Under the pieces are notes generated by a model. That model worked only from the letters and a program-made list of their open reading frames with translations, did no database searches and had not been told where the DNA came from. DNA of 64,000 nt from Streptomyces sp. TSRI0107 (GTDB lineage: Bacteria; Actinomycetota; Actinomycetes; Streptomycetales; Streptomycetaceae), in NCBI RefSeq assembly GCF_001905845.1, contig NZ_LIVZ01000004.1:496001-560000 (forward strand), written 5' to 3'. Positions within the stretch are counted from its first letter, which is position 1, and every line of letters starts with the position of its first letter. Below, one piece after another: positions 23,147 through 36,375 of the stretch. Both the position numbers and the translations under genes were made by a program.

Positions 23147-23518
23147 TTACTTCTCCTTCTTGGCGCCGTAGCGGCTGCGGGCCTGCTTGCGGTTCTTGAC
23201 ACCCTGGGTGTCGAGCGAGCCGCGGATGATCTTGTAGCGAACACCCGGCAGGTCCTTCACACGGCCGCCGCGCACGAGCACGATGGAGTGCTCCTGCAGG
23301 TTGTGTCCCTCACCCGGAATGTAGGCCGTGACCTCGATGCCGCTGGTCAGACGCACACGCGCGACCTTACGCAGGGCCGAGTTCGGCTTCTTCGGGGTGG
23401 TCGTGAACACACGCGTGCAGACGCCACGACGCTGAGGGGAACCCTCGAGTGCGGGCGTCTTGTTCTTCTCGACCTTGTCCTGCCGGCCCTTGCGGACCAG
23501 CTGCTGGATCGTAGGCAC
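23147..23518 (-). CDS. rpsL: Ribosomal protein S12
   Basis: The 123-residue protein starts at a GTG ([12 protein letters not shown]) with GGAGAAG upstream. [13 protein letters not shown] (the Lys43 loop) and [10 protein letters not shown] (the Lys88 loop) are wild type, so no classical streptomycin-resistance substitution is present. First gene of the str operon, with a leader of about 190 nt behind the promoter at 23713-23741. Confidence 0.98.
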
Positions 23519-23892
23519 TACTTCTCCGGTTTCTGTGTGCCGATGGGTACAGCTAACCTGGAACGTCGCCGACCCACGCGGTCGGGTGTGTCGAATCCTG
23601 CGGACTCCCGCCGCAAGGCAGAAAGAGGCGCGGATCACGGTGGCCGGTCACAGCTCCCTATGCGGTTGAAGGCACGCAGGAGAGCCAAGGCACACCCCAG
23701 GCACAAGGTCTGAGCGTACCTACCTCACGGACTTCGGTCAAAACAAATGGAGCCCACCCCGACACGCCGGACTTCTCACCTCCATACCTGCCTTTCGTCC
23801 TCCCGTCGCGCCGATGGCCGAAACACGCTCTTTCCGCGTCGGCGGTCTTGCACGTTCAGTACGTTGATCCGCCCGCGGCGACAAACGGGGGA
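23519..23892. other. Divergent region between rpsL and the CRP-family gene, 374 bp
   Basis: It holds the rpsL leader and promoter on the minus strand. On the plus side, about 130 bp lie upstream of the regulator gene; I see no promoter there that I would trust. No gene is visible. Confidence 0.6.
23713..23741 (-). promoter_or_regulatory. Promoter of rpsL-rpsG-fusA-tuf
   Basis: On the minus strand TTGACC, a 17-nt spacer and TACGCT form a near-consensus vegetative (HrdB-type) promoter about 195 nt upstream of the rpsL start. The surrounding sequence is A/T-richer than the coding regions. Confidence 0.85.
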
Positions 23893-24648
23893 ATGCGCAT
23901 GACAATAGGGACGTACGCTCCGGACGACGGCGGCCTGGACGACCGGGTGCCGTTCCTGGCACGGCTGGAGAGCGAGGACCGCTCCGCGCTGCTGGCCCTC
24001 GGCCGCACCCTGTCCTTCACCCGGCGCACGATCCTGCTGCACCAGCACGAGCCGTCCTCCCACGTGCTCTTCCTGGTGGACGGCTGGACGAAGGTCACCG
24101 CGTCGGCCGCCAACGGCTACGAGGCCCTGCTGGCGCTGCGCGGCCCCGGCGACATCATCGGCGAGTCGGCGGCGCTGACCGGGCGGCCGCGCTCCGCCAC
24201 GGTCACCGCGCTTGAGCCGGTGCGGGCGGTGGCCCTGGAGCGGGAACGCTTCCGCGACTTCCTGGGGCGCTCCCCCGCCGTGTCGTTCGCCCTGCTCGGC
24301 CTCACCGCGGACCGCACCCGGGCAGCCGACCGGCGCCGGCTGGAGTTCGCGTCGATGAGCGTCCGCGAACGGCTCGCCGTCCTGCTCCTCGAACTCGCCC
24401 GCACCCACGGCCGGCGCACCCCCGACGGCGTCGAACTCGCCGTACCGCTCAGCAAGCAGGAGCTGGCCGGCTCGGTGGGCGCCTCCCGCGAGATGGTGCA
24501 GCGGCTGCTGAAGGAACTCCGGGACAAGGAGGCCGTGATCACCGGCCGCCGCACCCTGCTGATCCGCCGCCCGGACGTCCTGCGCCGCATCGGCGCCACC
24601 GCCCCGGCGCCCGGAATCCCCGCGCCGCCGGGGCCCCGCGAGGAGTGA
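23893..24648 (+). CDS. CRP/FNR-family regulator with cyclic-nucleotide-binding domain
   Basis: This 251-residue protein has an N-terminal cNMP-binding domain (about 13-135) and a C-terminal winged helix. The phosphate-binding cassette reads GDIIGESAALTGRPRSATV. Its Gly-Glu and Arg-Ser-Ala match the residues that hold cAMP in E. coli CRP (GELGLF...RSAWV), so ligand binding is plausible. The HTH is in PLSKQELAGSVGASREMVQR. There are no FNR-type Cys. The start at 23893 follows GGGG; an ATG two codons later is also possible. The next plus-strand gene encodes a cyclase-like protein, and a CRP-type operator lies in the gap, so I infer a local circuit. It is a different gene from the main Streptomyces crp. 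Confidence 0.88.
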   Translation: MRMTIGTYAPDDGGLDDRVPFLARLESEDRSALLALGRTLSFTRRTILLHQHEPSSHVLFLVDGWTKVTASAANGYEALLALRGPGDIIGESAALTGRPRSATVTALEPVRAVALERERFRDFLGRSPAVSFALLGLTADRTRAADRRRLEFASMSVRERLAVLLLELARTHGRRTPDGVELAVPLSKQELAGSVGASREMVQRLLKELRDKEAVITGRRTLLIRRPDVLRRIGATAPAPGIPAPPGPREE

Positions 24649-24671
24649 CCCGCGGGTCCCAATCGCCCATC

Positions 24672-24687
24672 TGTGCACACGGTCACA
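24672..24687. promoter_or_regulatory. Predicted CRP-type operator upstream of the cyclase gene
   Basis: The 16-bp site TGTGC-ACACGG-TCACA differs from the CRP consensus TGTGA-N6-TCACA at one base. It also fits the Streptomyces Crp pattern GTG-N6-GNCAC. It lies 24 bp after the regulator gene and about 87 bp before the cyclase start. Binding by the neighbouring regulator or by the main Crp is inference. Confidence 0.6.
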
Positions 24688-24773
24688 CTCCGAATGGGTC
24701 ATCCGCCCTCACCACCACACGCCCCGGACGACCACTCTGCTGCATGCCCGCCACCCCCGTTCGAGAGGCGACC

Positions 24774-25961
24774 ATGAGCGACCCCGTGAGCCGCACGATC
24801 CTGCTGCTGGACATCGAGAGGTTCAGCGACCGGGACGACGTGGAACAGGCGTACCTGCGGCGCATGCTCTACGACATCACCGACCGCACCCTGGAACGCG
24901 CCGGCATCGACGAGACCCGGCGGCTGCGGGCCGACCGCGGGGACTCGGTGATGGAGCTCATCGACGCGAACGCCCCCGTCACGGCACTGCTGCGGGCCCT
25001 GCTCACCGAAGTGCCGGCCCAGTTGCGGGCGGTCAACCGCATGGCGTCCCGCTCCGCGCAGATCCGGCTGCGCGGCGTGGTCGCCTCCGGCTGGGTCGCC
25101 GTCGACGACCGGGACGGCTGGGTCGGCTCCGACCTGAACCACGCCTGCCGTCTGCTGGACGCCGACGTGCTGCGCGCCGCGCTGCGCGAGCGCGCCGACG
25201 ACTTCGCGCTGTGCGTCTCGGACGGCCTGTACGCCGGTGTCGTACGGCACGACCACCCGGGCATCCCGGCCGACGGCTTCCACGCGGTGACGGTGGCCAG
25301 CAAGAACGGCCCGCTGACGGCCTGGCTGCACGGGCCGCTCCCCGCCGGCGGCTTCGGGGCGGCCCACACGGACCACGGTGAGAGGGGGAAGGGGGACGCG
25401 CCGGGCGGATCGGGGGACCGCCCGGCGCCTCCCACGCCGGAGGGCACGCGGGCGTCTGCGGCTTCGGCAGCTGGTGGTGAGCTGGTCCGCTCGGGTTCAG
25501 CCGGCGACGGGGGGCAGGCGCATGGGGCCGCGGCCGACGAGGGCGAGCACGCGCCTGCGGCCGTCACTGGTGACGGCGAGCACGCACCGGGGGCCGCCGG
25601 CGGCGACGGACGGCGTGCACCTGCGGCCTCCGCCGGCGACGGGCGGCACGCCCCTGGAGCCTCCGCCGGCGACGGCGAGCACGCGCCCGCGGCCCCCGCA
25701 GCCAACGGCAACCACACCCCCGCAGCCCCCACGGCCCCCGCGGCCGACGGGCGGCACCAGAGCGGCCCGGCGTCGGACGGATCGGGGGCCCCGGCGCCGG
25801 GCTCCGGGCTGCACGTCAGTGGCGGCTCGGTCAGTTTCGGCGGGGGCTACGCCGCGGGCGACCAGCACGCGGTGTCCGGCGGGCAGGTCACCGGCGACGT
25901 CGTGATGGGCGGCAAGCAGGTCGTCATGGGCGACAAGGCGCAGCGGGGTGAGCGGCCGTGA
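24774..25961 (+). CDS. Class III nucleotidyl-cyclase-like protein with repeat linker and Gly-rich motif
   Basis: The protein has 395 residues. Residues 1-190 resemble a class III cyclase domain: LLLDIERFS gives Asp13 and Phe17 (metal site 1), RGDSV gives Asp57 (metal site 2), and GWVGSDLNHACRL keeps the Asn122-x3-Arg126 pair of the transition-state site. Activity is therefore plausible, but the product (cAMP, cGMP, cCMP or cUMP) cannot be told. Residues 190-345 are a low-complexity linker with six 11-residue repeats. Residues 354-381 (SFGGGYAAGDQH..., ending MGGK) recur in the next gene's product. Start chosen at the ATG at 24774 with GAGAGG upstream. The stop overlaps the GTG of the NLR-like gene (GTGA). 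No match to a named family was certain to me. Confidence 0.78.
   Translation: MSDPVSRTILLLDIERFSDRDDVEQAYLRRMLYDITDRTLERAGIDETRRLRADRGDSVMELIDANAPVTALLRALLTEVPAQLRAVNRMASRSAQIRLRGVVASGWVAVDDRDGWVGSDLNHACRLLDADVLRAALRERADDFALCVSDGLYAGVVRHDHPGIPADGFHAVTVASKNGPLTAWLHGPLPAGGFGAAHTDHGERGKGDAPGGSGDRPAPPTPEGTRASAASAAGGELVRSGSAGDGGQAHGAAADEGEHAPAAVTGDGEHAPGAAGGDGRRAPAASAGDGRHAPGASAGDGEHAPAAPAANGNHTPAAPTAPAADGRHQSGPASDGSGAPAPGSGLHVSGGSVSFGGGYAAGDQHAVSGGQVTGDVVMGGKQVVMGDKAQRGERP
25536..25733 (+). repeat. Six 33-bp tandem repeats encoding an 11-residue unit
   Basis: Units at 25536, 25569, 25602, 25635, 25668 and 25701 encode variants of GDGEHAPAASA. They form the linker between the cyclase-like domain and the C-terminal Gly-rich motif. 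Copy number may vary between strains. Confidence 0.8.
25833..25916 (+). repeat. Shared Gly-rich motif, copy 1 (cyclase C-terminus)
   Basis: 28 residues beginning SFGGGYAAGDQH and ending GDVVMGGK (protein positions 354-381). It is nearly identical to the copy at 26171-26254 in the next gene, in both protein and DNA. Confidence 0.85.
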
Positions 25962-28186
25962 CCGCCGGGCAGGAGCCGCAGGGCCCGGCACCGGCGGCGC
26001 CGGGCGGCGGGCCCGCGCCGGACCAGGGCGGCGACCCGGCCCCGGACGAGGCCCGCAAGGAGGGCGGCGCCGAGGAGTCCGAGGAGCGGGACCAGCCGCA
26101 GAACGCCTGGTCGGCGCGGCGCGACCTGGTCGACCACAGCCCCCGCACCATGAACGTCGGCGCCCGCACCAGCTTCGGCGGCGGCTACGCGGCCGGCGAC
26201 CAGCACGGCGTCAGCGGCGGCCGGGTCACCGGCGACGTCATCATGGGCAGCAAGACGGAGATCCACCACTGGTCGTTCTCCGGGCTGTCCGCCGCCGCCT
26301 CCGTCACCGCCTCCGGCGAGATCCCCCGCGCCAGGCTGGACCGGCTCGCCGAGTCCTTCGTAGCCGCCGAGGAGACCGTCGAGGGCCTGCTGGACCGGCT
26401 GCGCCGCGAACGCGTCCTGGTGCTGTCCGGCGCCCGCTTCACCGGCCGCCGCACGGCCGCGCTGATGCTGCTGCACCGGCTCGGCGCGTCCCCCGTGCAC
26501 GTCCTGGACCGCGACACGTCCCCCGGCGCGCTCTCCGAGCGCCTGACCGCACCCGCCGACGGTGCCGGCGGCACCCGCGGCTACGTCCTGTGCGACCTGG
26601 CGACCCGGCGCGGCAGCCCGCTGCGCGAGCCGCACGTGCTCGCCGCCCGGGACCGGCTCGCCGAGCAGGACGCCTACCTGGTGATCACCGTCGGCCCCAC
26701 CGCCGTACTGGAGGACGTGCCCGCCGTCGAGTGGCGGCCGCCCGCCGCCGAGGACGTGCTGAGCGCGCACCTGCGTGCCGTGACGGACGAGGAGACGGCC
26801 GGGCGCCTGCTCGGCCTGCCGGACGTCAAGGATTTCCTGGGCCGGGGCCACCAGTTGCGCGAGATCGCCGCGTTCGCCCGGCTGCTCGGCCGGTACGCCG
26901 CCGGGGAGGTCACCGAGCAGGCCGTCGCCGACTTCTCCCTCATCTCCCTGGAGAACCAGGTCCAGGAGTGGTTCGAGGAGGACGAGAGCGCCGTACACCT
27001 GCGGGACAAGGCGTTCCTCGTCGCGCTCGCCGCGTTCGACGGCGGCCCGTACGCGCTCACCGCCGAACTCAGCGACCTGCTCTACCGCTTCCTCCAGAAG
27101 ACCGAGAACCCGGCCCGCGTCCCCGAGGTCCCCGTCTTCGGCACCCACATGGGCAAGCGCCTGCAACTGGCCCGCGCCGAGCGGTACGAGGGCGACGAGC
27201 ACACCGAGTGGGGCCCGGTCACCCAGACGAAGGCGGCGTTCGCCGACGACCGGGTCTCGCTGGTGCTGCTGCGCGAGGTGTGGACGGGCCACCCGTCCGC
27301 CCGGCCCGCGCTGACCGAGTGGCTGCGCCGGCTCGCCGACGACGGCCGCCCCCTGGTCCGCACCCGGGCCGCGTCCACCGTCGCCGTCCTCGCCCGCACC
27401 GACCTGCCGTCCGCGATGGCGCTGGTCATCGAACCGTGGGCGCTCTCCAACCGGTTCCGGCACCGGCTCGTCGCGGTCAACTCCCTCACCCTCGCCCATC
27501 TCATCGACACGCCCAACATCCCGCGCATCCTCGACGGCTGGTCCGAGGACGGGGACCGCCGGCTGCGCTGGGTCGCCGTCCGCGCCTACGCGCTCATCGG
27601 ACCGGAACGGCCGGAGCAGGCCCTCGCCGCGCTGCGGCAGGCCGCCCGCCGCCTGTACGCCGACCTCGGCGACCCCGACGACTTCGACCGGGAGATGGCG
27701 GCGGAGCTGGCCGAGGCCGTGGAACTGCTGCTGCTGTCGCCCGCCGCCGCCCAGGTCCTCGCCGAACTGCGGGAACACCTCGACGACGACCGGGCCGTGC
27801 ACGATCTGACCCTGGGCGGCTTCATCAACGCCTGCCGCCGCACCGAGGGCGACGAGCGGTACGGCCTGCCGCTCGTCCTCGGCTGGTACGCCCGCGCCAC
27901 GACCGACGACCAGGCCGCCGCCGACGGCATCGCGCTCCTGTGGCGCCGGGCGCTGGGCGACCCGAACGCCACCCGGCCCGCCCTGGACCTGCTGCGCGAG
28001 TGGGTGCTGATCGCCGCCCGTTCGACGGCCACCGAGTGGGCGCTCGCCGCGCTCCTGCCACGGCTCGTCACGACCACGCCCGAGTACCAGCGGCTGAGCC
28101 ACCTGCTGCGCACCATGCCCGGCGAGGACGGCAATCCCCCGCCGCCGGTCGCCGCCCGCCTGCAGACCACCCTCCCGGTCCGCTGA
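25958..28186 (+). CDS. NLR/STAND-like P-loop NTPase with alpha-helical repeats
   Basis: This 742-residue protein has a disordered acidic/Pro-rich head (1-65) and the shared Gly-rich motif at 72-99. An NTPase-like region follows: VLVLSG then GARFTGRRT at 158-166 in the P-loop place, with Arg instead of Lys; GYVLCDLA as a Walker-B-like strand; and YLVITVGP as a sensor-like strand. The remainder (about 300-742) is helical, Leu/Arg/Ala-rich, with HEAT-like repeats such as VRTRAASTVAVLAR and LRWVAVRAYALIG. This order (motif, NTPase, repeats) resembles bacterial NLR/STAND proteins. The altered P-loop makes ATP hydrolysis uncertain. GTG start overlapping the cyclase stop. The function as a sensor that signals to the cyclase is inference. 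Confidence 0.75.
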   Translation: MTAGQEPQGPAPAAPGGGPAPDQGGDPAPDEARKEGGAEESEERDQPQNAWSARRDLVDHSPRTMNVGARTSFGGGYAAGDQHGVSGGRVTGDVIMGSKTEIHHWSFSGLSAAASVTASGEIPRARLDRLAESFVAAEETVEGLLDRLRRERVLVLSGARFTGRRTAALMLLHRLGASPVHVLDRDTSPGALSERLTAPADGAGGTRGYVLCDLATRRGSPLREPHVLAARDRLAEQDAYLVITVGPTAVLEDVPAVEWRPPAAEDVLSAHLRAVTDEETAGRLLGLPDVKDFLGRGHQLREIAAFARLLGRYAAGEVTEQAVADFSLISLENQVQEWFEEDESAVHLRDKAFLVALAAFDGGPYALTAELSDLLYRFLQKTENPARVPEVPVFGTHMGKRLQLARAERYEGDEHTEWGPVTQTKAAFADDRVSLVLLREVWTGHPSARPALTEWLRRLADDGRPLVRTRAASTVAVLARTDLPSAMALVIEPWALSNRFRHRLVAVNSLTLAHLIDTPNIPRILDGWSEDGDRRLRWVAVRAYALIGPERPEQALAALRQAARRLYADLGDPDDFDREMAAELAEAVELLLLSPAAAQVLAELREHLDDDRAVHDLTLGGFINACRRTEGDERYGLPLVLGWYARATTDDQAAADGIALLWRRALGDPNATRPALDLLREWVLIAARSTATEWALAALLPRLVTTTPEYQRLSHLLRTMPGEDGNPPPPVAARLQTTLPVR
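26171..26254 (+). repeat. Shared Gly-rich motif, copy 2 (NLR-like protein N-terminus)
   Basis: 28 residues beginning SFGGGYAAGDQH and ending GDVIMGSK (protein positions 72-99), matching the motif at the C-terminus of the preceding cyclase-like protein. The DNA copies are about 80% identical by eye. Confidence 0.85.
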
Positions 28187-28220
28187 CGGACCCCGGCACG
28201 TCCCCGAGGAGACACGCACC

Positions 28221-29846
28221 ATGCCCACCTTCCACCGCCAGCCGGAGTGGCAGCAGCCGGCGGACCGGCACACCCGGCTGATCGACCCGGTGCTCACCGT
28301 GCGGCAGCTGTCGCGCTTCGAGCTGTCGCTGAAGCATGTGGTCCGCATCGACCACGCGCTGGTCTTCTCGACCCCGAAGGGCGGATACGAGGCCTACCCG
28401 CCGCCCCAGCGGCCGTCCCGCAGCGAGATCATGGCCCACCGGTACACCGCCGTGTACGAGGTGGACATGGGCGTCCATCCCTTCACCGACACCCTCACGC
28501 TGCCCAGCGACAACGACGCGTTCGAGTTCACCGCCGAGGTGGACGTCTCCTGGCAGGTGCTCGACCCGGCCCGGTTCGTGGCCGGCGGGATCCGGGACGT
28601 ACCGGCGCTGCTGCTCGGCGAACTCCAGCAGACGGCCCGGCCCGTGACCCGCCGCTTCAGCATCGCCGACAGCGCGGCGGCCGAGGCGGAGCTGCTGAAG
28701 GCGGTCCACCTCGTCGGCCCGCTCGGCGCCCCCGCCGGACTCCAGGTCACCTGGACCCTGCGGCTGCGGCGCGACCAGGCGAACATCGAGCACCAGCAAC
28801 GGCTCCAGGCCATCGACCACTCCGCGACCGAGCAGATCCACACGGCGCAGCAGGGCATGCGGGTCGACGTCGAGATGGACCACCGCCACCGGCAGCAGGA
28901 CGCCCTCCAGCTCGGCCGGGCCATGGACTACGGCCGTCAGCAGCAGGAACTCATCCTCCAGCAGCAGCGCTGGCAGCACGAGCAGGCGCTGCTCCAGGGG
29001 CAGCACATGGTGGAGCTCCAGCAGATCGAGGCGCAGAAGATCGCGTTCTACCAGTGGCACCTCCAGCAGGGCGGCGTCCAGGCCTGGGCGCTGCACCTCG
29101 CCCAGCACCCCGAGGACTCCGGGCTGGTCATGAGCAGCATGCGCGAGGACCAGCTCCGCATGATCCAGGCCCAGATGGACCTGGTGAAGGAACTCCTGAG
29201 CGGCGAGGGCGCCGAGAAGTTCGAACTGGAGGGCCCCAAGCAGCTCGCCCTGCGCACGGTCAGCGACATCCTCAACCAACGCCTCCCCGGCGTACCGCAG
29301 AACCCTCCTCTGCTGCCTCCGACGGCGCCCACCCATCCGGACGCGGGTCAGGCCGGCGGGACGAACGACACCGCGCCGGGACAGGTCACGCCCGAGACGT
29401 CGGTTCCGGGTGTTCCGAGTGCTCCGGAAACCGTGACCCCGCCGGCCGGCACGGTATTCGGTCCGCCCACGCCGTACGCCCAGCAGCCGGCACCCCCCAC
29501 ACCGACGCCGACGCCCTACGCACCATCGCCCATGCCGTACGCACAGCCGCCGGTGATGCCGCACGCACAGCCGACCGCCCCGTACGCCCCTCCCGCCGCC
29601 CCGTACCCGCCCTACGCGGGCGGGCCGATGCCGGGTGTCCCGGCCACGCCGAGCACCCCTCCCGCACCTCCCGTGCCGACTGCCGCCTGGCAGCCCCCGC
29701 CCGGCTACGGCACCACCCCGACCGCGCCTCCGCAGCCGGACCCGACGACGCCTCCCGCCGCCTCCGCACCGGACGCCCCGCAGGACGGCACCTCACAGGA
29801 CCGCGCCTCACAGGACGCCACCCCGAAGGAGACCCCCGGTTCATGA
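28221..29846 (+). CDS. SPFH/band-7-like protein with Gln-rich coiled coil and Pro-rich tail
   Basis: The protein has 541 residues. Residues 1-190 look like an SPFH domain: VDMGVHPFTDTLTLPSDND, then FEFTAEVDVSWQVLDPARFV and a helical end. Residues 190-320 form a long charged, Gln-rich helix (IEHQQRLQAIDHS...; QQQELILQQQRWQHEQALL) likely to be a coiled coil. Residues 360-541 are Pro/Ala/Tyr-rich and probably disordered. No N-terminal membrane anchor is visible, unlike classical stomatins. SPFH proteins make membrane-associated rings. The gene lies 34 bp after the NLR-like gene, with GAGGAG before the ATG, and overlaps the next gene by ATGA. Function unknown. Confidence 0.7.
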   Translation: MPTFHRQPEWQQPADRHTRLIDPVLTVRQLSRFELSLKHVVRIDHALVFSTPKGGYEAYPPPQRPSRSEIMAHRYTAVYEVDMGVHPFTDTLTLPSDNDAFEFTAEVDVSWQVLDPARFVAGGIRDVPALLLGELQQTARPVTRRFSIADSAAAEAELLKAVHLVGPLGAPAGLQVTWTLRLRRDQANIEHQQRLQAIDHSATEQIHTAQQGMRVDVEMDHRHRQQDALQLGRAMDYGRQQQELILQQQRWQHEQALLQGQHMVELQQIEAQKIAFYQWHLQQGGVQAWALHLAQHPEDSGLVMSSMREDQLRMIQAQMDLVKELLSGEGAEKFELEGPKQLALRTVSDILNQRLPGVPQNPPLLPPTAPTHPDAGQAGGTNDTAPGQVTPETSVPGVPSAPETVTPPAGTVFGPPTPYAQQPAPPTPTPTPYAPSPMPYAQPPVMPHAQPTAPYAPPAAPYPPYAGGPMPGVPATPSTPPAPPVPTAAWQPPPGYGTTPTAPPQPDPTTPPAASAPDAPQDGTSQDRASQDATPKETPGS

Positions 29847-30397
29847 CCACGGTCGACCCGGTGCCCCCACCGACCACCGGCACGCCCACCCCACCCGCCA
29901 CCGGTCCGGCCCGCACCCAGGTGTGCGAGCGGCTGCTGGCCGACCTCCGTACCGAGATCGCCAGGGCCGACAGCAAGGCGGCGGTCCTGGTCGCCGCGCT
30001 CGGTATGACCGCGGGCGTGTTCAGCGGCCTGCTCGCGGGGCGGGACTGGACCCCGGACGCGCTCGCGGCGTCCGGCACCGCGCTGTGGTGGGCCGGGACC
30101 GCGTCCCTCACGTTCTCGCTGGTCGCGCTGCTCCTGGCCGTGCTGCCCCGGTACCGGGCCGGGTCCTGGGCGCCGGGACAGCCCCTGTCGTACTTCGGTG
30201 ACATCCGGCGGGCCGTCCGGACGGGCCGGCTGGACGACGCGCTCGCCGACACCGCGGCCGACCCCACGGCCGGCCTGGTCGCGGCGCTCACCGAGACCAG
30301 CCGGATCGCCTGGCGCAAGCACCAGTGGATCCGCGCCGGGCTGATCGCCTTCTGCACCGGCACGCTCCTGCTGCCCGCATCCCTGCTGATCGGCTGA
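29843..30397 (+). CDS. Small membrane protein resembling Pycsar effectors (PycTM-like)
   Basis: The protein has 184 residues. A Pro/Thr-rich head precedes a helix (CERLLADLRTEIARADSKAA), and the ADSKAA motif leads into membrane segment 1. A second hydrophobic segment pair is at about 80-110, then a cytoplasmic helical region with a terminal membrane segment. The R/D-x-K-A element before the first membrane helix and the late 'hairpin' of helices are typical of the family named Pycsar system effector. Those proteins are activated by cCMP/cUMP and disrupt the membrane. The gene is co-transcribed with a cyclase-like gene here, but they are separated by two genes. Many streptomycete relatives have no known role, so the defence function is inference. 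Confidence 0.65.
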   Translation: MTTVDPVPPPTTGTPTPPATGPARTQVCERLLADLRTEIARADSKAAVLVAALGMTAGVFSGLLAGRDWTPDALAASGTALWWAGTASLTFSLVALLLAVLPRYRAGSWAPGQPLSYFGDIRRAVRTGRLDDALADTAADPTAGLVAALTETSRIAWRKHQWIRAGLIAFCTGTLLLPASLLIG

Positions 30398-30456
30398 CCC
30401 CGGGTCCGCCGCCACCCCAGCCCCCAGTCGAACGAAGGCCAAGTGAAGGAACCACG

Positions 30457-31782
30457 ATGACCCAGCAGCCTCCACCGTCCCCACCGGAGTACCCGCAGCA
30501 GCCAACCCAGGCGCAGCCGCCCCACATGCCCCCGCAGTACCCCCAGCCACAGCCTCCACAGCCCCAAGCCCAGGTCCCACCGCAGTACCCCCACCCCCAG
30601 CCGCCGTACCCGCAGCCGCAGCCCCAGCCGCCGTACGCGCAGCCCCAGCCGCAGTACCCCACCCAGTCCCAGCCCCACCCCGCATACGGCCCCCCTCCTC
30701 CCCAGTACCCGACCGCGACCCCACCGGGGCCCGCCCCCGCCTACCCCGCACCCGGCATCACCCCGCCCCCGGCACCCCCCGCGCCCTCCGGAACCGCCCC
30801 CGCGGCCACCCTCTCCGCCGACGACCCCGCGCACCCCCACCACATCAGCACCGACCGCAGCCGGATCCACATCTCCGCCCAGCAGCGCCGCACCGACGCC
30901 ACCGCCGTCGGCAACCTGCTCCTCTACCTGCCGAACTTCCTGTGCAGCCTCCTCGTCGTCGGCCTCCTCTCCCTCGTCTTCGGCGACCTCGGCTTCCTGC
31001 TCGTGCTCGCCTGGCTCGCGAGCGGCGCACTCGTCTTCCACCGGCCGACCGAAAGCGCCCTCGCGCGCCATTTGCTCCGCTTGCGCTACCCCACTCCACA
31101 AGAACGAGCCAGACTTGAACCCGTCTGGCGCGAGGTCACCGCCCGTGCCGGCGTCGAGGGCCGGAACTACGAGCTGTGGGTGGAGGACAGCGACAGCCTC
31201 AACGCGGTCGCCGCCGCCGGCCACATCGTCGGCGTCACCCGCTTCGCCATGAACGAGCTGCCCAACGGCGAGCTGGCCGCCGTCATGGCGCACGAGCTGG
31301 GCCACCACGTCGGCGGGCACGCCTGGTCGGGACTGCTCGGCTACTGGTACGCGCTGCCCGGCCGGATCGCCTGGCGGGTGCTCCGCGTGGTCACCGCCCT
31401 GCTGTTCCGGGTCTCCCGCGTGTTCTCCTGCTTCGGCGTGCTGTTCTTCGGCCTGTTCGTCGGCGGTATCGCCCTGGCCACCATCAGCACCCTGTACGGG
31501 CTGCCGCTGCTGATCCTCGGCATGCCGTACGCGCTCGCGGCGGTCGGCCGGCGGGCCGAGCTGCGGGCCGACCAGCACGCCGCCGCGCTCGGCTTCGCCC
31601 CGATGCTGGTCGCCGTACTGGACAAGCTGCACCAGCAGGAGCAGCAGCAGGCCGCCGCTCTCGCCGCCGCCAACGGCGGTGTCCCGCTGGCCGAGAGCCC
31701 GGTCAGCAAGCTGCTGGCCTCACACCCCGACTACCACACCCGGCTGCACCACCTGCAGGCCTACCTGCAGCCGCACCGCTGA
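30457..31782 (+). CDS. M48 family membrane metalloprotease with Pro/Gln/Tyr-rich head
   Basis: The protein has 441 residues. Residues 1-125 are almost only Pro, Gln, Tyr and Ala (low complexity). Two membrane segments follow at about 150-195. The zinc site is HELGHH (His279, Glu280, His283), with the downstream ELRAD (Glu368, Asp372) as third ligand and partner. This is the HtpX/Ste24-type peptidase fold. It cleaves membrane or misfolded proteins in known members; the substrate here is unknown. The start at 30457 has GAAGGA upstream and lies 59 bp after the preceding gene. It is the last gene of the plus-strand block and ends at a shared hairpin with the converging DUF1707 gene. Confidence 0.88.
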   Translation: MTQQPPPSPPEYPQQPTQAQPPHMPPQYPQPQPPQPQAQVPPQYPHPQPPYPQPQPQPPYAQPQPQYPTQSQPHPAYGPPPPQYPTATPPGPAPAYPAPGITPPPAPPAPSGTAPAATLSADDPAHPHHISTDRSRIHISAQQRRTDATAVGNLLLYLPNFLCSLLVVGLLSLVFGDLGFLLVLAWLASGALVFHRPTESALARHLLRLRYPTPQERARLEPVWREVTARAGVEGRNYELWVEDSDSLNAVAAAGHIVGVTRFAMNELPNGELAAVMAHELGHHVGGHAWSGLLGYWYALPGRIAWRVLRVVTALLFRVSRVFSCFGVLFFGLFVGGIALATISTLYGLPLLILGMPYALAAVGRRAELRADQHAAALGFAPMLVAVLDKLHQQEQQQAAALAAANGGVPLAESPVSKLLASHPDYHTRLHHLQAYLQPHR

Positions 31783-31793
31783 CCGGTCCGCCC

Positions 31794-31812
31794 GCCCGGG
31801 CTCAGCCCGGGC
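31794..31812. terminator. Short bidirectional hairpin
   Basis: GCCCGGG / CCCGGGC with a 5-nt loop lies between the M48 gene and the converging DUF1707 gene and overlaps the stop of the latter. Confidence 0.5.
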
Positions 31813-32317
31813 CCGACAGGGCCGTCACCAGTGCGACCAGGCCCACCAGCAGCGCCCAGCCGGCGACGGACACCCAGCCGAGCACCAGCCCGATCAGCGC
31901 GAGCCCGTCGCCGTCCTCGTCGGAGCGCCGTATCTCGGATCGCGCCGCGTGCCCCAGCACGACCGCCGGTATGCCGGTCAGGCCCATGGTGGGCAGGCAG
32001 AGCAGCCCGCAGACGGCGGCGCCGAGCGCCTTCCCGTTCGTCTTCGGCCGGTGCACCGGCATGAAGGTCCGGGGCACCGCCATGAGGGCCGAGGGATGCG
32101 GTGCGGGGCCCTGCGGCAGGTCGGCGACCAGCAGCGCCAGCTCCCCCACCGTACGAGCCGAATAGGCCCGCGCGACCCGCTGCTCGAACTCCCTCTGCTC
32201 CATCCGCCCCTCCCCGTAACCAGCTCTGAGCACGTCCACGGCACGCTCCCGGTCGGCGTGCGAGGCGAGCATCGACGGGGCACTGTGCTGCCACGAGGGA
32301 TACGACGACTGCGACAC
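31802..32317 (-). CDS. DUF1707/DUF4190 membrane protein
   Basis: This 171-residue protein has an N-terminal DUF1707 domain (ASHADRERAVDVLRAGYGEGR, then EFEQRVARAYSARTVGEL and LVADLP). Two hydrophobic segments of the DUF4190 type follow. I chose the GTG at 32317 because GGGAGG stands 5 nt before it; the GTG at 32323 would have the same Shine-Dalgarno directly adjacent. These two-domain proteins are common in actinomycetes; no function is established. It is located just downstream of the rpoC terminator in reading direction. Confidence 0.8.
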   Translation of the reverse strand: MSQSSYPSWQHSAPSMLASHADRERAVDVLRAGYGEGRMEQREFEQRVARAYSARTVGELALLVADLPQGPAPHPSALMAVPRTFMPVHRPKTNGKALGAAVCGLLCLPTMGLTGIPAVVLGHAARSEIRRSDEDGDGLALIGLVLGWVSVAGWALLVGLVALVTALSGPG

Positions 32318-32408
32318 GGGCACCTCCCGGAACGCGAAGTCCCTCCATCATCCGCCGAGGCGGCATTTCCGGCATCGGGGTCCTACCCGGAGAAAACCCG
32401 GACACGCC

Positions 32409-32441
32409 GAAGGGCGGCCACCCTGAGGGTGACCGCCCTTC
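32409..32441 (-). terminator. rpoC terminator
   Basis: The stem GAAGGGCGG-C-CACCC / GGGTG-A-CCGCCCTTC has one mismatch and a TGA loop. It lies 35 bp after the rpoC stop. Confidence 0.85.
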
Positions 32442-32475
32442 GTCTCAAGCCACTCAAGCGACTCGAGCGACTCGC

Positions 32476-36375
<3,900 letters not shown>

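Follow-up and report, generated by a model that had tools for sequence, protein, structure and literature searches.

The stretch analysed here, hereafter the window, comprises 64,000 nucleotides of Streptomyces sp. TSRI0107 (contig NZ_LIVZ01000004.1, positions 496,001 to 560,000) and carries six co-oriented genes in the order CRP regulator, cyclase, NLR-like protein, Band7-like protein, PycTM and M48 protease. The second and third of these genes encode proteins that share a short Gly-rich motif, located at the C-terminus of a class III nucleotidyl cyclase and at the N-terminus of the adjacent NLR-like protein. An earlier note on the window had read this pair as a RHIM-like amyloid signalling motif through which the sensor is coupled to the cyclase. 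Across related loci the two motif copies co-vary, and the idea that the sensor and the cyclase are coupled homotypically is well supported.

The cyclase, the NLR-like protein and their matched motif

The features of the two genes, with positions in the window, are as follows.

24774..25961, + strand: class III nucleotidyl cyclase, ATG at 24774, with a long disordered C-terminal tail that has the motif at its end
25344..25832, + strand: Pro/Ala/Gly-rich linker from the cyclase domain to the motif (AlphaFold2 predicted local distance difference test score, pLDDT, ~50)
25833..25916, + strand: cyclase-side motif SFGGGYAAGDQHAVSGGQVTGDVVMGGK, residues 354-381 (covarying core ~25836-25907)
25958..28186, + strand: NLR-like protein, GTG start, with a disordered head carrying the motif, a STAND-type NTPase fold and HEAT repeats
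26099..26143, + strand: short conserved helix QNAWSARRDLVDHSP directly before the NLR-side motif (AlphaFold2 helix 50-60, pLDDT ~90)
26171..26254, + strand: NLR-side motif SFGGGYAAGDQHGVSGGRVTGDVIMGSK, residues 72-99 (covarying core ~26174-26245)
26309..26977, + strand: STAND/AAA-type NTPase domain, residues 118-340 (VIA matches to TRIP13 and other AAA ATPases, Z ~10)
26990..28117, + strand: HEAT-repeat superhelix, residues ~345-720, putative sensor (AlphaFold2 helical repeat, HEAT matches)

The 28-residue motif that the earlier note had placed at cyclase residues 354-381 and NLR residues 72-99 was confirmed, with 24 of the 28 residues identical between the two copies. BLASTP comparison of the cyclase with the NLR-like protein aligned this region over 35 residues (E=2e-12) and gave no further significant match. 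A motif search of the whole 8.74-Mb genome returned two convincing places only (E 2e-18 and 3e-11), the next match having E=0.011; the weaker matches that were inspected are low-complexity chance frames. No copy is present in the remaining operon proteins; the CRP protein seemed to hold a third one (z=9.1), but this was an artefact of six loci in which the open reading frame ran past its stop into the cyclase. Seven of the 24 identical residues in the window (counted by eye) are encoded by differing codons, and the proportion of synonymous differences between the copies (pS) is 0.36 versus 0.10 for non-synonymous differences (pN), so the pair is not a recent DNA copy.

The motif is composed of 31% Gly and 14% Val, with 0.6% Pro, 0.1% Lys and <1% Glu, and the linker contains 22% Pro. 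Together with a 12-residue [V]xG[D] pseudo-repeat within the motif, this composition would suit a beta-arch. A third, degenerate VxGD-like repeat (QVVMGDK) lies 12 residues past the second in the cyclase (window 25908-25946), and at the same position the cyclases of loci L010 and L075 carry several extra Gly-Lys repeats.

The labels given to both proteins by the earlier note were borne out by fold and domain matches. The AlphaFold2 model of cyclase residues 1-190 has pLDDT values mostly above 90, and its VIA fold match to 5d0h (Ma1120) has a Z score of 17.2 over 155 residues with a root-mean-square deviation of 2.1 Å. A profile search of the PDB with the cyclase family alignment trimmed to the catalytic domain matched 5d0g (Ma1120, E=2e-7); the full-tail version gave no PDB match. 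The two metal-binding aspartates (D13 and D57) and the transition-state arginine (R126) are invariant in a near and a far subfamily, and the transition-state N122 is invariant across the near subfamily, with Asp at this position in the far one. Because all four residues are invariant in the near subfamily, the cyclase is predicted from its sequence to be active. The linker between the catalytic domain and the motif ranges from 21 to 187 residues among loci.

For the NLR-like protein, the AlphaFold2 model has a mean pLDDT of 83.6 and its Foldseek matches include SAMD9, AVAST5, the Dark apoptosome and Avs4. Pfam detects nSTAND3 in 15 and HEAT_2 in 14 of 35 relatives. The conserved residues W51, R55, L57, H60 and P62 lie around the pre-motif helix. 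Residues 69-96, which cover the motif, have pLDDT values below 50 and show no secondary structure across it. In the AlphaFold models the segment is not part of a globular domain, so this result, which would have told against the earlier note, did not appear. The Walker A lysine is replaced by arginine (G158-x4-G163-R164; window 26429-26449), and R164 is invariant across the 35 relatives, sampled from the Streptomyces family. Some members from outside Streptomyces (L167, L173) retain the lysine.

Co-variation of the motif copies across loci

Scanning GTDB genomes yielded 80 loci; with earlier loci added, the set comprises 99 distinct cyclase/NLR pairs. The paired layout of effector C-terminus and NLR N-terminus was seen in the window and in the 99 loci, and related loci having both genes carry paired tails; a motif missing from one partner, which would likewise have told against the earlier note, did not turn up among them. 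Under independent divergence of the two copies since an ancient duplication, no closer match would be expected between a cyclase tail and its own NLR head than between that tail and any other head. The mean Smith-Waterman score of the 99 cognate pairs was 104.7 versus 68.2 (standard deviation 1.7) for shuffled pairs (z=21), and 0 of 100,000 shuffles reached the cognate value; the co-variation in other genomes that the earlier note had suggested examining is thus borne out. The cognate excess is also found in diverged clusters, with z=12.0 for 38 clusters (<70% core identity), z=9.5 for 27 (<60%) and z=4.6 for 11 (<50%). Furthermore, cognate pairings beat nearest-relative pairings (Wilcoxon p 5e-3 to 6e-13).

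The excess of matches per column is limited to alignment columns 6-29, about 24 residues that include Gly/Asn/Gln positions, and is absent from both flanks (columns 1-5 and 30-35). At column 15, Gln or Asn is matched in 97% versus 55%. Among 29 representatives, columns 6-29 match at 63% versus 42% (standard deviation 2.2), and the flanks are null. When changes were placed on the branches of the NLR tree, both proteins changed on the same branch 143 times in the motif columns (44 expected), and 49 substitutions were identical; in the flanks the count was 70 (51 expected), with 0 identical. The window lineage itself carries a V>A change at column 11 in both copies, reached via different codons.

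The sequence of the motif changes between lineages, and the partners change with it. In distant Streptomyces operons both proteins have motifs of other types, for example GGSNQIYDGNTF / EGDSQIYDGNTF in L061, and the sequences differ again in other families of the order (GPTSFGGHAAGRDV / GPVSFGGHAAGRDV in L167; QEVTQGDKNIKNIYGG / QEAVMGDKNVNTFYFG in L174). Further types that are non-cognate to the window are represented by QNNVTGNSVGGD (L109) and NHGIGGGTFSGD (L043). In the other families an exact permutation test gave p 0.004 for eight loci, and for five loci the true pairing was the best of all 120; the single pairs L168, L172 and L173 are weak taken alone. In a reduced relative of the operon (L059, L064 and L069), which lies in a neighbourhood common to the three and has the CRP and NLR-like genes without cyclase, PycTM or M48, the NLR-like proteins carry no motif. 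The cyclase matches obtained in these three loci were spurious frames from untrimmed query open reading frames, with no cyclase gene beside the NLR. L064 and L069 also encode a small protein that has a membrane helix at its C-terminus. An operon remnant in L176 (G177) consists of a CRP gene and a truncated NLR fragment fused in frame to the end of M48, and no cyclase was found there.

Homotypic coupling is well supported because the two copies co-vary, the co-variation is confined to a disordered segment of about 24 residues, foreign motif types are still matched, and the cyclase-less clade is motif-free.

The surrounding operon and its genomic site

The other four genes of the operon are listed below.

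23848..24648, + strand: CRP/FNR-family regulator with a cyclic-nucleotide-binding domain, predicted second-messenger reader (likely start ATG ~23893)
28221..29846, + strand: Band7/SPFH-like protein, tentative, with a low-complexity tail (Pfam Band_7 in 3/29 relatives, best E 0.0086)
29843..30397, + strand: PycTM membrane effector (PF18967 E=2.7e-22; PADLOC PycTM 1.6e-13)
30457..31782, + strand: M48-family metalloprotease with a Pro/Gln-rich N-terminus (Pfam Peptidase_M48 4.5e-19)

The CRP-type protein matches Pfam cNMP_binding (2.2e-19) and HTH_Crp_2 (2.2e-14), and the phosphate-binding-cassette signature GE(x6-11)R[ST]A is kept in 77 of 81 orthologues. PF18967 was found in all 23 relatives scanned. 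A profile search of the PDB with the Band7-like protein gave no match, and its identity stays weak. No Pfam match among the scanned operon proteins pointed to MoxR or vWA. The cyclase stop and the GTG start of the NLR-like gene overlap by 4 nucleotides in the window, and likewise in 94 of 99 loci.

The operon is flanked by rpsL and rpoC (window 23147-36375), a junction that is otherwise highly conserved in chromosomes. Gene content and site were counted in the 76 near loci that span 14 kb or more. The rpsL-rpoC site is occupied in 71 of them, and the distant subfamily is located elsewhere; a plasmid search returned a single distant relative only. Such a constant position amid core genes does not resemble a defence island. 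Only PycTM and the NLR layout would suggest an antiphage role. CRP, cyclase, NLR and M48 are present in all 76 near loci, PycTM in 67. PycTM thus varies more than either CRP or the M48 protease, so a regulatory output may act alongside membrane killing or replace it.

Proposed mechanism, alternatives and relation to known systems

Taken as a whole, the account that we consider probable is that a homotypic tag couples the STAND/HEAT sensor to the cyclase, most likely by amyloid-type stacking. The NLR-like protein, with its STAND NTPase and HEAT sensor, would be kept inactive before a trigger; once the trigger is sensed, it would assemble and expose its N-terminal motif copy, which would nucleate or recruit its counterpart on the cyclase's long, flexible tail. 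The two copies would most likely stack in register as beta strands, as in amyloid signalling. Clustering of cyclases would then switch the enzyme on through proximity, and the cyclic nucleotide would be read by the CRP-type regulator and, where present, the PycTM membrane effector, with growth arrest or death as the end result.

Clustering would activate the cyclase because the active sites of class III cyclases form at the dimer interface and their dimers are active; PycC dimers are arranged head-to-tail (PMC11224242). With a long tether and a dimer-active cyclase, recruitment would give a simple switch, and identical in-register changes along a disordered segment of about 24 residues are what homotypic stacking predicts. 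We infer physical binding, proximity activation, the nucleotide made, the trigger and the outcome, as well as an amyloid structure, which is plausible. The pair would function like an amyloid-signalling pair, and membership in a known class is not claimed. More tentatively, the motifs may form an undescribed amyloid-type family in which the STAND/HEAT sensor templates and dimerises a class III cyclase, so that a prion-like assembly would yield a diffusible cyclic-nucleotide signal for PycTM and the CRP-type regulator.

Several observations weigh against this account. The RHIM/BASS3/PP tetrad [IV]Q[IVLC]G occurs in 0/86 loci in either protein, and the RHIM resemblance drawn by the earlier note is not supported, so that its interpretation stands in part, namely in the layout, the co-variation and the protein labels. 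AlphaFold2 predicts a weak hairpin only, at cyclase residues 353-360. Hidden Markov model and shuffle comparisons with three N-termini (two from NLR-like proteins and one from another protein), picked with a BASS-like consensus, gave no significant match. ATP-driven assembly of the NLR-like protein is uncertain, as judged from its sequence, because the Walker A lysine is replaced by arginine. PycTM was undetected in 9 of the 76 near loci and so cannot be the sole output; it was not detected in the interval between the Band7-like and M48 genes in L045, L049, L050, L051, L053, L135, L137, L139 and L149. The cyclase/NLR motif pair persists in these loci, several of which keep just Band7-like and M48 there. 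The cyclase-less trio described above probably represents one evolutionary event. Finally, the two genes share the codon at 38 of 47 identical substitutions.

These shared codons imply that DNA-level copying explains part of the matching, and gene conversion clearly contributes to the likeness of the copies. Neutral concerted evolution, in which the neighbours left by an old partial duplication are homogenised by conversion with no functional link, would account for the shared codons, for the same-codon use of 70% in cognate pairs versus 62% in distantly related non-cognate pairs, and for a synonymous divergence between copies (dS) of about 0.35, with 12 of 86 loci (pS <0.1) looking recently homogenised. 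For several of the shared-codon residues these genomes use almost a single codon. Against a purely neutral origin stand the lower pN than pS in 67 of 86 loci, as in the window, the V>A change reached by different codons, the persistence of two copies at exactly these termini throughout the order, and the absence of the motif where the cyclase is missing; we regard it as very improbable. The pattern is read as conversion supplying matched states that selection would keep. This contribution of conversion, like the Pycsar-type effector in the operon, goes beyond the earlier note.

A homotypic contact need not be an amyloid. The same co-variation would fit a small ordered beta complex, such as a hairpin exchange, a beta-solenoid cap or a low-order oligomer, without templated fibre growth, and the 12-residue pseudo-repeat, the weak hairpin of the cyclase copy and the missing RHIM tetrad are compatible with it. 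We find such a complex unlikely, considering that the NLR copy has no predicted fold and that a composition rich in Gly and poor in Pro and Lys, together with the position near the protein ends, recalls amyloid-signalling motifs (PMC8086366). The two motifs might also be ligands of one scaffold or chaperone that unites sensor and cyclase, their changes tracking this receptor; substitutions that are identical and not complementary would be expected from a shared receptor no less than from homotypic stacking. The remaining operon proteins carry no copy, however, the match over most of the 24 columns, Gly/Asn/Gln positions included, exceeds a typical peptide ligand, and completely different motif types between families would require a fast-coevolving receptor, which makes a third protein improbable, if slightly less so than neutral homogenisation.

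The proposed homotypic coupling shares traits with several known systems. The layout of effector C-terminus and NLR N-terminus has been described for bacterial amyloid-signalling loci (PMC7889193, PMC8086366), and the NLR-associated motifs BASS 1-10 (Dyrka et al. 2020) are summarised in PMC7889193, PMC8086366 and PMC12261475. Like these, the pair presented here is a short Gly/Val-rich motif at the C-terminus of one protein and the N-terminus of an adjacent NLR-type protein, encoded by clustered genes in filamentous actinobacteria; it lies outside globular domains and covers 24 columns that are disordered in both models (20-40 residues expected). Grammar symbols for bacterial motifs stand for Gly, Val/Ile, Ala/Ser and Gln (PMC8086366). 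The partners of published motifs are named as BELL, CHAT and TIR (PMC7889193), whereas the partner here is a class III cyclase and the RHIM/BASS3 tetrad is absent. Homotypic receptor-effector templating as proposed here is also the principle of RHIM, fungal PP and HET-s, from which our pair differs in the missing tetrad (86/86 loci) and in having as effector an enzyme whose predicted product is a second messenger.

With Pycsar (PycC with PycTM or PycTIR) the operon shares a gene of class III cyclase fold next to PycTM and a CRP-type nucleotide-binding domain nearby. It differs in having six genes, including an NLR and the matched motif, and in an optional PycTM; its cyclase barely matches the PADLOC PycC models, the window cyclase being unmatched and 2 of 16 relatives matching weakly (best E 0.0019). 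Cyclases are linked to inactive STAND proteins through matched, mostly alpha-helical adaptors (PMC8195603). The iSTAND2 and EAD with Death-like adaptor systems (PMC7159879, PMC8195603) likewise tie a cyclase or other effector to a partly inactive STAND by matched homotypic adaptors, and the Walker A change is reminiscent of their inactive STANDs; those adaptors are mostly alpha-helical domains, whereas the segment here is a disordered Gly-rich 24-mer.

A literature search of mostly freely readable papers found no cyclase-NLR pairing through such a motif, and a matched NLR motif with cyclic-nucleotide output appears to be new among known matched-motif systems. The outcome of bacterial NLR amyloid signalling has been called unexplored (PMC7889193). 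Should the motif act in the way suggested here, one operon would unite two defence logics so far described apart, namely NLR assembly through matched motifs and signalling by cyclic nucleotides. The cyclic nucleotide would then be a measurable read-out of cognate-specific motif templating, and the many co-evolved pairs would offer a ready set for specificity tests.

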